Of a stretch of 64,000 nt of DNA, positions 8,379 through 39,295 are shown one piece after another; position 1 is the stretch's first letter; each line of letters begins with the position of its first letter. Position numbers and translations under genes: made by a program. The notes beneath the pieces are model-generated. The model was not told where the DNA came from. It saw only the letters and a program-made list of their open reading frames with translations, and searched no databases. Origin of the DNA: Rhodospirillales bacterium URHD0017 (GTDB lineage Bacteria; Pseudomonadota; Alphaproteobacteria; Reyranellales; Reyranellaceae); contig FODP01000002.1 of NCBI GenBank assembly GCA_900110395.1, forward strand, positions 248,001-312,000, written 5' to 3'.

Positions 8379-8864
8379 TCAGCCCGCGCAGCGCCGGGCG
8401 GAAGCCGCCTGCCTCATCCTTTGCAGGTTGATCTTCTTGTACTCCGGACGTCCGGTGACCTCGGCGCCGACCCACTCGGGCAGGGGAAGGTCGGTTCTCT
8501 CGTCCGGCAATTCCACCTCGGCGAGGACGATGCCGTCGAGCAAACCTTCGTAGACGTCGACGTGCCACACCAATCCGGCATGCGGCACGTAGTGCCGGGT
8601 CTTGTCGAGGACCAGATCCCCACAATGCGAGGCAAGCATCTCCCGCGCGTCCGGCACCGGTATGGCGTATTCGAATTCGACGTCCCTGATGCCTTCCCGC
8701 TTGGCCTTTATCGTCAGGGTCGCACTGCCATCCCGTATGCGCACACGGACCTTGCGCTCGGCAGAGTGGCAGATCAGGCCGTCCCTCAGATGCTCGTGCC
8801 GCACCGCGTGGGCACGCCATCTGCCATCAGCGACCAGGAATTTTCGCTCTATTTCGACGAACAC
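8379..8864 (-). CDS. CYTH domain protein (triphosphate tunnel metalloenzyme)
   Basis: A 161-residue CYTH protein. The N-terminal EIERKFLV (residues 4-11) is the ExExK motif that binds metal-triphosphate. VRVRIRDGSATLTIKAKREG, DKTRHYVPHAGLVWHVDVYEG and ILAEVELPDE provide the alternating charged strands of the tunnel. Such proteins in bacteria act as inorganic triphosphatases or adenylate cyclases; the short single-domain form with no CHAD domain most often has triphosphatase activity. The start is the GTG at 8864, just before the conserved motif, since the upstream open frame is shadow. It overlaps the tiny lipoprotein gene by 16 bases, so the two are probably co-transcribed. Confidence 0.85.
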   Translation of the reverse strand: MFVEIERKFLVADGRWRAHAVRHEHLRDGLICHSAERKVRVRIRDGSATLTIKAKREGIRDVEFEYAIPVPDAREMLASHCGDLVLDKTRHYVPHAGLVWHVDVYEGLLDGIVLAEVELPDERTDLPLPEWVGAEVTGRPEYKKINLQRMRQAASARRCAG

Positions 8865-9100
8865 GGGCGGGGCCGTTCGAAGAAATCGGCCGTCCCAGAG
8901 ATGACCGCAAGATCGAAACTCCCTGCACTCATGGTCCACCCCCCGGCCAGGCCCGATTGAACGGACTCGGCGGGATTCTCGGCCCGGAAACTGTCCCATC
9001 CTCCGCGCCCCGGTGTCGCGTAACGGCCGTCCGCGCCGGGCGCCGGAGCGCATCCGTCGAGAAGGACTGCACCAGCGGCAAGCGTCAGGAGTAGCCTCAT
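8849..9100 (-). CDS. Small putative lipoprotein with GGWDSFRAE core
   Basis: An 83-residue product from the ATG at 9100. A hydrophobic leader (RLLLTLAAGAVLLDGC) ends in a lipobox-like LDGC with the cysteine at residue 17. Directly after it comes ADGRYATPGRGGWDSFRAE, matching the core of the three tandem lipoproteins at 37847-38303. The remaining 40 residues are not shared and may be a later extension. Its end overlaps the CYTH gene by 16 bases. It is divergent from the DUF2892-sigma-AhpD operon, with an FNR-type box between. The aspartate at -2 of the lipobox is atypical. I do not recognise the family; the shared motif is the main reason to believe it is real. Confidence 0.6.
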   Translation of the reverse strand: MRLLLTLAAGAVLLDGCAPAPGADGRYATPGRGGWDSFRAENPAESVQSGLAGGWTMSAGSFDLAVISGTADFFERPRPCSSK

Positions 9101-33799: not shown

Positions 33800-33816
33800 T
33801 ATTCTTGGAGTGCCTC

Positions 33817-34119
33817 ATGCCCACACGCAACGTTGTTCTTACTGAGCATCAGGCTGATCTGATCGAACGGCTGGTCGATTCTGGGCGATATCAGAATGCC
33901 AGCGAGGTTCTGCGTGAAGGGCTGCGCCTGGTGGAAAGCCGCGAGGCAGAAGATCGCGCCCGACTCAAAGCGCTTCGTGACGCCGTCAAAGTCGGCTTGG
34001 ACGACTTGCAGGAGGGTCGCTACCGCAGCTTTGACTCTTTTGAAGCTTTGGACAGCCATCTTGGCAAAGTTGCCGACAGGGCGATCGCGAGGCATCGCGC
34101 CGGTCAGAAGCGGAAGTGA
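33817..34119 (+). CDS. parD: ParD-like antitoxin
   Basis: A 100-residue ribbon-helix-helix antitoxin. NVVLTEHQADLIERLVDSGRYQNASEVLREGLRLVE is the CopG/ParD domain (strand plus two helices), with SGRYQNASEVLREGLRL nearly canonical. The charged C-terminal tail (SREAEDRARLKALRDAVKVGL) wraps ParE toxins. The ATG at 33817 has TTGGAG 6 bases upstream and beats the longer frame from 33805. Its stop overlaps the toxin GTG by 4 bases. The region is less GC-rich than its surroundings, in line with horizontal gain. Confidence 0.93.
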   Translation: MPTRNVVLTEHQADLIERLVDSGRYQNASEVLREGLRLVESREAEDRARLKALRDAVKVGLDDLQEGRYRSFDSFEALDSHLGKVADRAIARHRAGQKRK

Positions 34120-34475
34120 GCCCGCAGCGCCGCATATGGGATGTGCGGCTATCACTCGCTGCCGAGACTGACGTCGAAGACATCGTGTTTTGGACCGCTG
34201 ATCGCTTCGGCGAGACGCAGGCGCGAGCCTACGAAGATATCCTCAAGAAGGCCGTTTTCTCCCTCCGGGAAGGCCCTTCTCGTGCCGGATCAAGGCCTCG
34301 GCCAGACATCGGCCCACGACTTTACTCATTACACATCGCAGGGATTTCACCTCGGGCGCGGCACTTCATCTTTTTCAAGGTCGTCACTGACGATCGGATC
34401 GAAGTCGTCCGCATTCTGCACGACGGCATGGACTTTCAGAGGCATCTGTCATCCGACGAGACGGAAGAAACTTGA
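34116..34475 (+). CDS. parE: ParE-like toxin (RelE/ParE superfamily)
   Basis: A 119-residue toxin of the RelE/ParE fold. WDVRLSLAAETDVEDIVFWTADRFGETQARAYEDIL gives the first strand and helix pair, GPSRAGSRPRPDIGPRLYSLHIAG the central strands, and RHFIFFKVVTDDRIEVVRILHDGMDFQRHL the closing sheet with the ParE-type LHxxMD end. ParE toxins inhibit DNA gyrase. The start is a GTG that overlaps the parD stop. The pair is a self-contained addiction module inserted between hyuB and the SMP-30 gene. Confidence 0.92.
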   Translation: MSPQRRIWDVRLSLAAETDVEDIVFWTADRFGETQARAYEDILKKAVFSLREGPSRAGSRPRPDIGPRLYSLHIAGISPRARHFIFFKVVTDDRIEVVRILHDGMDFQRHLSSDETEET

Positions 34476-36705: not shown

Positions 36706-37863
36706 ATGCGCATCGTCGCCATCCGCGACATCGTCTCGCCGATCCGCTCCAACATCGCCAACGCCTATATCGACTTCAGCCAGATGACGGCGAGCGTCGT
36801 GGCCATCGAGACCGACCTCGAGGTCGAGGGCAAGCCGGTGATCGGCTACGGCTTCAACTCCAACGGCCGCTATGCCCAGAAGGGGCTTTTGGCCGAGCGC
36901 TTCATCCCGCGCCTGAAACAGGCCAAGCCGGAGTCGCTGCTCGATGGCGAGGGCCTGCTCGATCCCGCCAGGTGCTGGGCCGCCATGATGGCCAATGAGA
37001 AGCCGGGCGGCCACGGCGAGCGCTCGGTGGCCGTCGGCGTTCTCGACATGGCGTTGTGGGACGCCGTGGCCAAGGCCAAGCGCGTGCCGCTGTGGAAGCT
37101 TCTGGCCGACCGCTACAACGGCGGGAAATTCGACGACAAGGCGTGGGTCTACGCGGCCGGCGGCTACTACTACCCCGGCAAGGACCTCGACGGGCTGCAG
37201 GACGAGATGAAGCACTATCTCGACCTCGGCTATGCCTGCGTGAAGATGAAGGTGGGCGGCGTGCCGCTCGCCGACGACATCAAGCGCATCGAGGCGGTCC
37301 TGAAGATCGTCGGCGCCGGCGAGCGCCTGGCGGTCGACGTCAACGGCAAGTTCGACCTGCCGGCGGCGATCGCATTCGGCAAAGCGATCGAAGGCTACAA
37401 GTTGCGCTGGTACGAAGAGCCGCTCGATCCGCTCGACTACCTGGCGCATGGCGCGCTTGCTACCCAGTACGCCCCACCGCTCGCCACCGGAGAGAACCTG
37501 TTCTCCATGCAGGACGCCCGCAATCTGGTGCGTCACGCAGGCCTCAGGCCCGACCGCGACATCCTGCAGTACGACCCGGCCCTGTCCTACGGCCTGGTCG
37601 AGTACCTGCGCACCATCGACATGCTGAAAGCCCACGGCTGGTCGCCGCGGCGCTGCGTGCCGCACGGCGGCCACCAGTTCGCGCTCAACATCGCCGTCGG
37701 CCTGCAATGCGGCGGCAACGAATCCTATCCGCAGGTCTTCGCGCCGTTCGGCGGCTTCGCTGACGATTGTCCCGTCGTCGACGGCCGCGTGGCCATGCCC
37801 GATGCGCCGGGCATCGGGTTCGAACGCAAGGCCGACCTGTGGTCCGTTATGAAAGCCGTGTAG
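36706..37863 (+). CDS. D-tartrate dehydratase-like enolase-superfamily enzyme
   Basis: A 385-residue enolase-superfamily enzyme matching characterised D-tartrate dehydratase (TarD of Bradyrhizobium) along its length. AAMMANEKPGGHGERSVAVG and AAGGYYYPGKDL are TarD-specific blocks. The base K182 (VKMKVGG), the metal ligands D211, E237 (EEPLDP) and E263 (GENLF) and the acid/base H320 (PHGGH) are all present, each two positions below the TarD numbering I recall. The enzyme removes water from D-tartrate to yield oxaloacetate. It ends an SMP-30/MFS/dehydratase operon and overlaps the convergent lipoprotein gene by 17 bases. Assignment to the TarD clade is strong; a neighbouring sugar-acid substrate cannot be excluded. 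Confidence 0.88.
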   Translation: MRIVAIRDIVSPIRSNIANAYIDFSQMTASVVAIETDLEVEGKPVIGYGFNSNGRYAQKGLLAERFIPRLKQAKPESLLDGEGLLDPARCWAAMMANEKPGGHGERSVAVGVLDMALWDAVAKAKRVPLWKLLADRYNGGKFDDKAWVYAAGGYYYPGKDLDGLQDEMKHYLDLGYACVKMKVGGVPLADDIKRIEAVLKIVGAGERLAVDVNGKFDLPAAIAFGKAIEGYKLRWYEEPLDPLDYLAHGALATQYAPPLATGENLFSMQDARNLVRHAGLRPDRDILQYDPALSYGLVEYLRTIDMLKAHGWSPRRCVPHGGHQFALNIAVGLQCGGNESYPQVFAPFGGFADDCPVVDGRVAMPDAPGIGFERKADLWSVMKAV

Positions 37864-37990
37864 CCGCCGGCGCTTCGGCGCGGGTGTTGCTGCGCCCGCC
37901 ATCGTGGGTCTGGTAGCGATCGTCCTGGGGAATGCCCGAGCATCCCGCGACGAGAGTTGCTGCGATCAAAGCCATCAGCCGCGCAATCAT
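37847..37990 (-). CDS. Tiny lipoprotein, third of a tandem trio (degenerate core)
   Basis: A 47-residue product. The leader MIARLMALIAATLVAGC ends in a clean lipobox (LVAGC, cysteine 17), then SGIPQDDRYQT matches the next paralogue (SGLPKDGRYQT). The core has drifted to HDGGRSNTRAEAP, with arginine and threonine where the others have tryptophan and phenylalanine. Its ATG overlaps the stop of the middle gene by 4 bases. Serine at +2 predicts outer-membrane sorting. The 3' end runs into the convergent dehydratase gene. It may be a decaying copy or a functional variant. No known family. Confidence 0.65.
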   Translation of the reverse strand: MIARLMALIAATLVAGCSGIPQDDRYQTHDGGRSNTRAEAPAATRLS

Positions 37991-38133
37991 GTCGAGCGCA
38001 CCGTGGGAACTTCCCAAGCCTCGGCACGGAAATTGTCCCAGCCACCGCCGCCCGTTTGATAGCGGCCATCCTTGGGCAAGCCGGAGCATCCGGCGACGGC
38101 CAGCGGGAGTACGACGACGAGGGCGATCTTCAC
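37987..38133 (-). CDS. Tiny lipoprotein, second of the trio
   Basis: A 48-residue product from a GTG at 38133. The leader VKIALVVVLPLAVAGC carries the lipobox VAGC (cysteine 16). The mature part is only about 33 residues: SGLPKDGRYQTGGGGWDNFRAE, then AWEVPTVRST. DGRYQTGGGGWDNFRAE is the clearest version of the family core. The GTG overlaps the stop of the first gene by 4 bases and its own stop overlaps the third gene's ATG by 4, so all three should be translated in a coupled fashion. A role at the outer membrane or as a receptor accessory is conjecture. Confidence 0.75.
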   Translation of the reverse strand: MKIALVVVLPLAVAGCSGLPKDGRYQTGGGGWDNFRAEAWEVPTVRST

Positions 38134-38303
38134 ACCATCGACCCCGGCGTCACCGGCAACTCGGCGCGGAAGTTCTCCCACCCGCCGCCTCGGCTGCCCT
38201 TCGGGGAATTGCCGCCACCACCACCCGTCGTGCCGGTCGATGTACAACCGACCGCCAGTGCCGCGATGAGGACCACAGCCAGAATGAAACGAAGGCCTGT
38301 CAT
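38130..38303 (-). CDS. Tiny lipoprotein, first of the trio
   Basis: A 57-residue product. The leader MTGLRFILAVVLIAALAVGC has the lipobox AVGC (cysteine 20). After it comes a short threonine/glycine linker (TSTGTTGGGGGNSPKGS) and then RGGGWENFRAELPVTPGSMV, so the GGGW-[DE]-NFRAE core is kept while the DGRYQT part is lost. It starts 20 bases after the Bug receptor stop on the same strand and overlaps the second lipoprotein gene by 4 bases. Threonine at +2 predicts outer-membrane sorting. The function is not known. Confidence 0.72.
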   Translation of the reverse strand: MTGLRFILAVVLIAALAVGCTSTGTTGGGGGNSPKGSRGGGWENFRAELPVTPGSMV

Positions 38304-38323
38304 GGCGCTGAGATGCGCCCGCT

Positions 38324-39295
38324 TCACTCCGGCTTCAACAGGCCCGACTTCACAAGTTCGGCAACGACGGCTTCCATATCCTTCAGGTGCGCTGCGAAAT
38401 CGGCCCGGCTGGTCGGCCGCACTTCGGCGCCGAGGTCGACCAGCTTGCGCTTGACGTCGTCGTCCTGGAGCGCCGCGACCACGGCGGCATTCAGCACGTC
38501 GAGCGCCGCGGCCGGCGTCTCGGCACGCGCCAGCACGCCTGCGGTCGTGCTGCCGTCGAACGGCTTTATGCCGATGTCCTTCAGGCTCGGCACATCGGGC
38601 AACTGGGTGATGCGATCGGGCCCGAGGATCAGCAGCGGCCGGATCTTGCCGGTCCGGATCAGCGGCAGCGAGGTCGTGAGCTGATCGGTGTAGAGGTCGA
38701 TCTGGCCAGCCATCAGATCGGCCAGACCGGGCCCGGACCCTCTGTAGGGGATGATGTTGAACTTCACGTTCTCGCTCGCCTGCAACTGCAGGTCGGCGAC
38801 GTGGTTGATCGTGCCGTTGCCGGAATGGCCGACGCTGACCGTGCCGGGCTTCGCCTTGGCTTCGGCCAGCGCGCTCTTCATGTCCGGGAAGCGGCTGTCG
38901 GCGCGGGTCACGATCAGGGTCGGCACGGTGGTGAGCAGGCTGATCGGCGCGAACAGCGGCACCATCGAGGACTTGCCCGCCATGTAGGGCGCGATGCCCA
39001 GGACACTGAAGCTGCCCATCACCACCGTGTAGCCGTCGGCCGGCGCGGCGACCGTGGCCTCGAGGCCAACGACGCCGCCCGCGCCGGGCCGGTTGTCGAC
39101 CAGCACGGTCTGGCCCAGCCGCCGGGCCATGACGTCGCTGACGATACGCGACGTGACGTCGTAATTTCCGCCGGGTGCGAAGGGAACGATCCAGCGGACC
39201 GGCTTGTTGGGAAAAGCCTGCGCTGCGGCCGGCATCGCCATCATGCCTGCACCGGCAAGGCTTGCGCCCAAAAGTTCCCTGCGTCTCATTTTCAT
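38324..39295 (-). CDS. Tripartite tricarboxylate transporter substrate-binding protein (Bug family)
   Basis: A 323-residue periplasmic receptor. A twin-arginine-like leader MKMRRRELLGASLAGAGMMA ends at AQA, and the mature protein opens FPNKPVRWIVPFAPGGNYDV. VLVDNRPGAGGVVGLEATV, APADGYTVVMG, IIPYRGSGPGLADLMAGQ and IRTGKIRPLLIL are family blocks. AGGGGG lies just before the ATG at 39295; a second in-frame ATG two codons on is the alternative. Three tiny lipoprotein genes follow at once on the same strand, the only Bug gene in the window with such partners. It is divergent from the Kef-type antiporter gene. Confidence 0.92.
   Translation of the reverse strand: MKMRRRELLGASLAGAGMMAMPAAAQAFPNKPVRWIVPFAPGGNYDVTSRIVSDVMARRLGQTVLVDNRPGAGGVVGLEATVAAPADGYTVVMGSFSVLGIAPYMAGKSSMVPLFAPISLLTTVPTLIVTRADSRFPDMKSALAEAKAKPGTVSVGHSGNGTINHVADLQLQASENVKFNIIPYRGSGPGLADLMAGQIDLYTDQLTTSLPLIRTGKIRPLLILGPDRITQLPDVPSLKDIGIKPFDGSTTAGVLARAETPAAALDVLNAAVVAALQDDDVKRKLVDLGAEVRPTSRADFAAHLKDMEAVVAELVKSGLLKPE

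Follow-up and report, generated by a model that had tools for sequence, protein, structure and literature searches.

Three overlapping minus-strand genes between positions 37847 and 38303 of the window, a stretch of 64,000 nucleotides from contig FODP01000002.1 of Rhodospirillales bacterium URHD0017, are real genes of a hitherto undescribed lipoprotein family. Their coding nature and conservation, the restriction to one genus in the searches made, the gene order, a fixed upstream element and the persistence without the neighbouring Bug gene were observed directly. All in all, the best explanation is probably a Reyranella-specific tandem array of tiny lipoproteins with a promoter of its own and a putative docking tail.

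The first gene, g1 (38130..38303, minus strand), started with ATG and encoded 57 amino acids, with a mature chain from Cys20 of CTSTGTTGGGGGNSPKGSRGGGWENFRAELPVTPGSMV. It was followed by g2 (37987..38133, minus strand; GTG start, 48 aa) with the canonical core DGRYQTGGGGWDNFRAE and g3 (37847..37990, minus strand; ATG start, 47 aa) with the HD-type core DDRYQTHDGGRSNTRAE. The overlaps were GTGA between g1 and g2 (38130-38133) and ATGA between g2 and g3 (37987-37990). Upstream of g1 lay a Bug/TctC-type periplasmic receptor gene (38324..39295, minus strand; Pfam TctC E=1e-48), whose stop codon ended at 38324, leaving a gap of 20 nt before the g1 ATG. Convergent to the trio was an enolase-superfamily (MR_MLE) gene (36706..37863, plus strand; Pfam MR_MLE_C E=1.7e-38), the 3' end of which was overlapped by g3 over 17 nt. 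ORF coordinates and translations agreed with an earlier sequence-only reading of this DNA, which had described a minus-strand trio of 57, 48 and 47 codons with the motifs found here, an overlap of 4 bases in each pair, a start 20 bases past the Bug gene and a leader with lipobox in each gene; all three leaders fitted a PS51257-type pattern and had a K/R n-region. Their mature chains, put at roughly 30 to 40 residues in that reading, measured 31-38 aa, compared with a family median of 24 (n=86). The window has 656 stretches of 35-70 aa from start to stop (ATG or GTG starts, some with a common stop); seven of them combined a K/R n-region with a PS51257-type lipobox, and the trio made up three of the seven. 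g1 matched profile A2, built with g1 included, at E=2.1e-11. Searching the window's own genome showed similarity of g3 to g2 (E=1.2e-7) and turned up a fourth paralogue belonging to subfamily B (8849..9100, minus strand; PGADGRYATPGRGGWDSFRAEN), which has a C-terminal extension and scored E=4.6e-18 against the subfamily B profile that contains it. At 83 aa from the ATG at 9100, its chain was the longest among 86 family members and may reflect recent loss of a stop codon. Elsewhere in the window, a ParD/ParE-type toxin-antitoxin pair was present at 33805-34475 (plus strand), with two ORFs overlapping by 4 nt and Pfam matches to ParD_antitoxin (E=2.5e-12) and ParE_toxin (E=2.5e-14).

The 86 members with placed start and Cys came from 69 of 80 loci and were carried forward from 89 of 100 profile matches. 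A spurious minus-strand frame in L109 and two sequences for which no start was placed (L153 and L158) were left out, and some subfamily B matches, such as that in L155, were filtered from the member list. The family showed the features of lipoproteins, a basic n-region, a hydrophobic stretch and a PS51257 lipobox with its Cys. The lipobox pattern was found in 83/86 members, all of which had been placed by a Cys after A, G, S or D before this count. A basic residue near the N-terminus was likewise found in 83/86, its lack in three members being a consequence of the automatic start choice. Each precursor would thus carry a Sec/lipobox signal peptide and be lipidated and cut at the Cys. In E. coli, the residue following the Cys sorts lipoproteins (the +2 rule). 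Asp directly after the Cys occurred in 2/86 members, and on the basis of this residue the family is predicted to be bound mostly for the outer membrane.

Mature chains had a median length of 24 residues (range 22-67), with 22-26 residues in 54/86 members, and a lipid-anchored peptide of 22-43 residues would remain after processing in 83/86. The usual short chain was C-x3-P-x2-DGRY-x-T-x3-GGWDNFR[AG]. A W-type end resembling GGWDNFR was present in 65/86 members and the remainder were mostly of an HD type resembling HDxGxxNxR; in 46/86 the chain ended directly after R-[AG]. Cys, Pro, Asp, Arg, Tyr and Gly positions were invariant in a core alignment of 15 hand-chosen representatives. The family core, C-x3-P-x2-D-G-R-Y-x-T followed by a GGWDNFR or HDxGxxN end, was found in the trio, with g1 having the back half alone. 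AlphaFold, run on g2 with 59 window and locus sequences, predicted a leader helix at residues 2-14 and coil for the rest, at a mean pLDDT of 66.5.

Selection on the genes was assessed from pooled Nei-Gojobori counts in seven orthologue groups, in which pairs are not independent. dN/dS was 0.12-0.36 in the mature part and 0.33-0.71 in the leader, with the mature part below the leader in every one of the seven groups. The values for mature part and leader were 0.28 and 0.71 for g1, 0.36 and 0.62 for g2, and 0.20 and 0.33 for g3. On subsets of the same groups, pN/pS was 0.05-0.49 in the annotated frame against 0.95-8.1 in 14 shifted frames. The sequence-only reading would have given up the family had the substitution pattern resembled that of non-coding DNA; the pattern was of coding type in the annotated frame. 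Mature chains are constrained in this frame only, and the genes are really coding and kept by selection.

That reading had also staked the family on a profile search for homologues with a conserved core in other genomes, and relatives with the W-D-N-F-R core were present across Reyranella (R. massiliensis 521, R. soli, R. aquatilis and MAGs). A family member was found in 56/65 Reyranella genomes at E<=1e-9 with profile A2 or A4, both of which include sequences from some of the genomes counted. The 9/65 genomes without a confident member indicate that some species can do without the family or that it escaped detection in draft assemblies. In 11 genomes of the order from outside the genus nothing matched at E<=0.001, the best value being 0.0068. 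In a sample of 385 genomes of the class, profile A3 gave four matches at E<=1e-4, three in Reyranella and one in G040, and profile A4 gave two, both in Reyranella. A core-only profile found two matches at E<=0.001 in 398 genomes of the phylum, again both in Reyranella. With at most 18 candidates scored per genome in the class sample and 21 in the phylum sample, weak relatives may escape these searches. When 84,980 species genomes were scanned with a pattern, which picks up near-exact cores only, 26 related loci came up. They were titled as Reyranella or as unspecific MAGs of Alphaproteobacteria; the exception was one MAG labelled Rhizobium, which belongs to the same genus as the window. Within the searches made, the family has so far been seen only in the genus Reyranella. 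A partial core match covering profile positions 6-17 (G076:C98:16216-16251, E=6.7e-5) was located inside a 255-codon open frame and could be a larger protein with the motif. The G040 match, the sole one outside the genus at E<=1e-4, was the N-terminus of a 349-aa lipoprotein of another alphaproteobacterium (L172:5111-6160, minus strand), with a lipobox followed by GNDGRYTTH. By eye we take this protein to be CsgG-like. CsgG was present in 1/65 Reyranella genomes, so a functional link was rejected and the resemblance is probably a coincidence. A mobile origin was also rejected, as a 27-residue g2 query matched nothing in plasmid or phage records and profile A3 nothing in viral contigs.

The same g1-g2-g3 order of paralogues recurred in five other loci (L120, L123, L126, L127 and L128). 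L116 held a different trio with one W-type and two HD-type genes, L115 and L129 held two-gene arrays, and dispersed copies were found in other loci. With automatic starts, 13 of 14 adjacent pairs in eight overlapping arrays overlapped by 4 nt, and the 14th, in L128, does so too if a GTG start seven codons upstream is taken. Tandem pairs without overlap occurred in L101, L103 and L133. Translation of g2 and g3 would be coupled to the preceding gene through these NTGA overlaps. Duplication followed by divergence, as proposed in the sequence-only reading, is supported by the recurring order, the other arrays and the dispersed copies. The graded drift of the motif along the array that it also described was not found. 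Instead, g2 has the full W-type core, g1 the GGGWENFRAE half alone, and g3 retains DDRYQT with a GRSNTRAE end; g1 has lost the front (DGRYQT) half of the core, g3 has changed the back (WDNF) half and g2 keeps both.

The recurrent order at the site was Bug gene, tiny gene or genes, and convergent enolase gene, with 61-94% identity of the Bug proteins and 88-97% of the enolase proteins to those of the window. The enolase-type gene served as a syntenic marker and was present in 62/65 Reyranella genomes at E<=1e-180. The spacer from Bug stop to family ATG was 20-21 nt in most Bug-bearing loci, with exceptions in L098 (19 nt), L097 (36 nt) and L121 (67 nt). Five loci (L104, L116, L132, L145 and L149) lacked the Bug body and retained the tiny gene or genes behind a Bug 3' remnant. 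Counting upstream from the tiny-gene ATG, their similarity to Bug-bearing loci ended after about 63-111 nt, a length that takes in the spacer and roughly the final 40-90 nt of Bug. L125 was likewise without a Bug body, with another gene just upstream, near the contig end. Conversely, 10 loci had Bug within 400 nt of the enolase gene and inspection of three frames of the gap by eye showed no tiny gene. The idea that subfamily B has a conserved neighbour was rejected: 97 neighbours of 27 loci, taken from home-made gene calls, matched 107 Pfam families, the commonest of them in four. Bug is not required for the tiny genes and the pairing is loose.

A promoter-like element spans the Bug 3' end. 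In the window, a putative -35 box TTGAAG (38333..38338, minus strand) was located inside the last Bug codons and a putative -10 box CATCTC, which is CAT[AG]TC in most relatives, at 38310..38315 (minus strand), 6 nt before the ATG. Further upstream, a conserved GCGAACTTGTGAAG-like block (38347..38362, minus strand; 87% mean pairwise identity in eight copies) is a possible activator site or promoter part. For the element counts, five genes were manually reassigned to the family ATG as their start. TTGAA[AG] was then found at exactly -35 to -30 from the ATG in 38 of 45 first-in-array genes; in six others it was off by one base and in L149 by four. The second box, mostly CAT[AG]TC, was at -12 to -7. 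A strict pattern, TTGAA[AG]-N17-CA[TA]NT[CT]-N6-ATG, which had been fitted to the tiny genes before counting, was found 33 times when both strands of the loci (814,848 bases) were scanned, each time at the start of a member. The whole window had one hit, and three simulated sequences of matching length had none. A generic sigma-70 scan of 37700-38500 returned no promoter and did not score the -10 box CATCTC, which is weak in the window.

Since the element overlaps the coding part of Bug at most loci, its conservation is inflated by coding constraint and shared ancestry. The Leu codon that forms the -35 box was TTG in 34 of the 35 Bug genes that precede a tiny gene, as against 1 of the 10 that do not, counted by eye (Fisher 1.1e-7, in a test that ignores phylogeny). 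In the single exception, L121, a copy of the element stood beyond the Bug stop instead; displaced or second copies also occurred in L101 and L103. In eight copies without a coding role in Bug, identity was 91% in each of the two boxes and 87% in the upstream block; it fell to 63% in the spacer, 68% in the bases preceding the -35 box and 44-52% in the flanking sequence. L149 was left out of this comparison for its shifted spacing. A general dip in synonymous divergence over the Bug 3' end was rejected (0.39-0.41 versus 0.21-0.64 elsewhere), the signal being limited to the TTG codon plus a few other positions. Loci that have lost Bug, or in which it is displaced, still have the element, and the array likely has its own promoter across the Bug 3' end, from which a leaderless mRNA beginning at the g1 ATG is predicted. 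Leaderless mRNAs have been reported in other Alphaproteobacteria, with 375 in Caulobacter (PMC4117421) and 171 in S. meliloti (PMC3616915). L101 and L103 each have two tiny genes, of which the downstream one comes with a promoter-like element of its own, and element and gene therefore seem to duplicate as a single cassette.

The main alternative is that the tiny genes are accessories of a Bug operon, co-transcribed and coupled through the stop codon, whose peptides serve the receptor or its transport system. The shared strand, the short spacer of most Bug-bearing loci and the lack of a separate sigma-70 site in the generic scan speak for it. So do start-codon hairpins in several species, which favour coupling to Bug where they occur. 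The spacers of L107, L112 and L122 contained near-perfect inverted repeats (TGTCATGTC...GACATGACA type) round the start codon, which could be an operator or a start-codon hairpin. As a general feature an RNA hairpin was rejected, since it was strong in part of the species and absent in others. Against co-transcription with Bug, six loci keep the tiny gene though the Bug body is gone, the 10 Bug loci near the enolase gene show no tiny gene, and subfamily B copies sit elsewhere without a shared neighbour. This alternative is consequently judged unlikely, and a promoter in the Bug 3' end accounts for the closeness to Bug better than a shared function with it.

Similarity searches gave no known identity for the family, which the sequence-only reading had not recognised either. 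With 59 members as queries, nine Pfam and 24 NCBIfam families were matched at E<=0.1, all weakly (best E=0.003) and centred on the signal peptide, and in ten proteins inspected against the cut-offs none exceeded that of any family. Membership in a known family was rejected on these grounds. Matches to YgdI/YgdR, TrbK, Lpp/OprI and others were centred on signal peptide and lipobox. In the ten proteins, the three named here reached 11-16 bits versus cut-offs of 23-43 and ended 0-7 residues past the Cys; YgdI/YgdR gave at most 16.0 bits against a cut-off of 42, over profile positions 2-23 of 71. A few other models (BPTD_2524, CT253) ran up to about 17 residues past the Cys, far below cut-off, and matches to Sublancin and CglD (E 0.23 and 0.053) were discarded as noise. 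Among solved structures there were two matches only, both with E above 1. By title and start of abstract, the literature on Reyranella and lipoprotein held nothing on the family, and that on taxonomically restricted and small lipoprotein held no description of it.

The closest functional parallel is LptM (YifL; PF13627/NF047847), reported as a tiny lipoprotein that docks on the outer-membrane complex LptDE through conserved residues following its lipobox (PMC10567701). The Reyranella family likewise consists of very small lipoproteins with a conserved stretch after the lipobox and differs in the core motif, the multi-copy state and the single-genus range. NF047847 gave six matches among the 59 members at E<=0.1 (best 0.0056), which in the ten proteins ended at the Cys with at most 13.4 bits versus a cut-off of 27.7, and PF13627 gave none at E<=0.1. 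A native LptM in the window's genome was rejected: PF13627 had no match there over its cut-off, in a search that passes in just 1 of 14 control genomes, and the sole weak match was inside a 684-codon open frame, which is no small lipoprotein. Strong constraint on a short tail after a lipid anchor is most like a docking peptide. The functional element would be the conserved C-x3-P-x2-DGRY-x-T-x3-G-x-x-N-x-R part, and the unstructured tail would dock on an envelope protein partner in the manner of LptM on LptDE, with the array transcribed from its own promoter across the Bug 3' end into a leaderless mRNA. By this analogy, docking of an outer-membrane-tethered tail on a putative partner is tentatively put forward, at somewhat less than even chances. 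More speculative, and improbable in all its parts together, is that the genus evolved peptide ligands tethered to the outer membrane in two flavours (W-D-N-F-R and HD-x-G-x-x-N), many of them little more than 20 residues long. As this lineage's own counterpart of LptM, these ligands would dock an envelope machine. They would have spread as a promoter-plus-gene cassette whose promoter arose out of the final codons of a transporter gene and outlived that gene.

Two other functions were weighed, both by comparison with small lipoproteins of similar build. The ecnAB genes are a tandem pair of paralogues for small lipobox proteins, and colicin lysis or bacteriocin release proteins are tiny lipoproteins of about 28 residues once mature, to which the Reyranella family is alike in size. 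The entericidins EcnA and EcnB, together with Atu8019, share with it a precursor of about 40-55 aa, a small mature chain and a lipobox, whereas the Reyranella tails are Gly-rich, have a W-D-N-F-R end and are predicted as coil. The sequence-only reading had held that entericidins lack the core. No entericidin model appeared among the Pfam/NCBIfam matches of the 59 members at E<=0.1; a colicin lysis model was not among their Pfam matches either. Atu8019 of A. tumefaciens, annotated as entericidin, is reported as a surface-exposed protein of 53 aa with a 32-aa mature chain that affects OMV docking (PMC7296081). The Reyranella proteins might analogously be surface-exposed small lipoproteins for cell-cell or vesicle contact. 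Atu8019 matches them in size and class as far as it is described there (PMC7296081), and multiple variable paralogues would fit such a role. The missing entericidin match argues against it, and the tail core appears too constrained for a diversifying surface ligand, which makes the contact function doubtful. Lytic lipopeptides of the entericidin or colicin lysis kind, with the tandem copies as toxin and antidote, are suggested by the family's size, lipobox and tandem paralogues, which resemble those of ecnAB. They are very unlikely here, given that no such model was matched at E<=0.1 and that the g2 tail is predicted as coil, unlike an amphipathic helix. Moreover, the 54 short mature chains were Gly-rich (20%), with 18% hydrophobics (AVILMFW) and a median net charge of 0, and Gly-rich, near-neutral tails with few hydrophobics speak against a lytic peptide. 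Finally, it is scarcely credible that the ORFs are open merely by chance within a conserved DNA or RNA element, since, despite the genuine conserved DNA element just upstream, low pN/pS is confined to the annotated frame and three contiguous lipobox ORFs have retained their 4-nt overlaps.

The trio thus belongs to a new family of a known kind, the tiny lipoproteins, with an unusual transcription arrangement. Tiny lipoproteins are easily overlooked by annotation, and the Reyranella family has no matching model in the libraries searched. With a mature chain often of about 23 residues, it approaches the minimum size of a lipid-anchored protein under selection and offers a clean case to ask what so short a tail binds. 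The element in the coding end of a neighbour, retained after that neighbour was lost, provides a testable example of a gene gaining its own transcription start.
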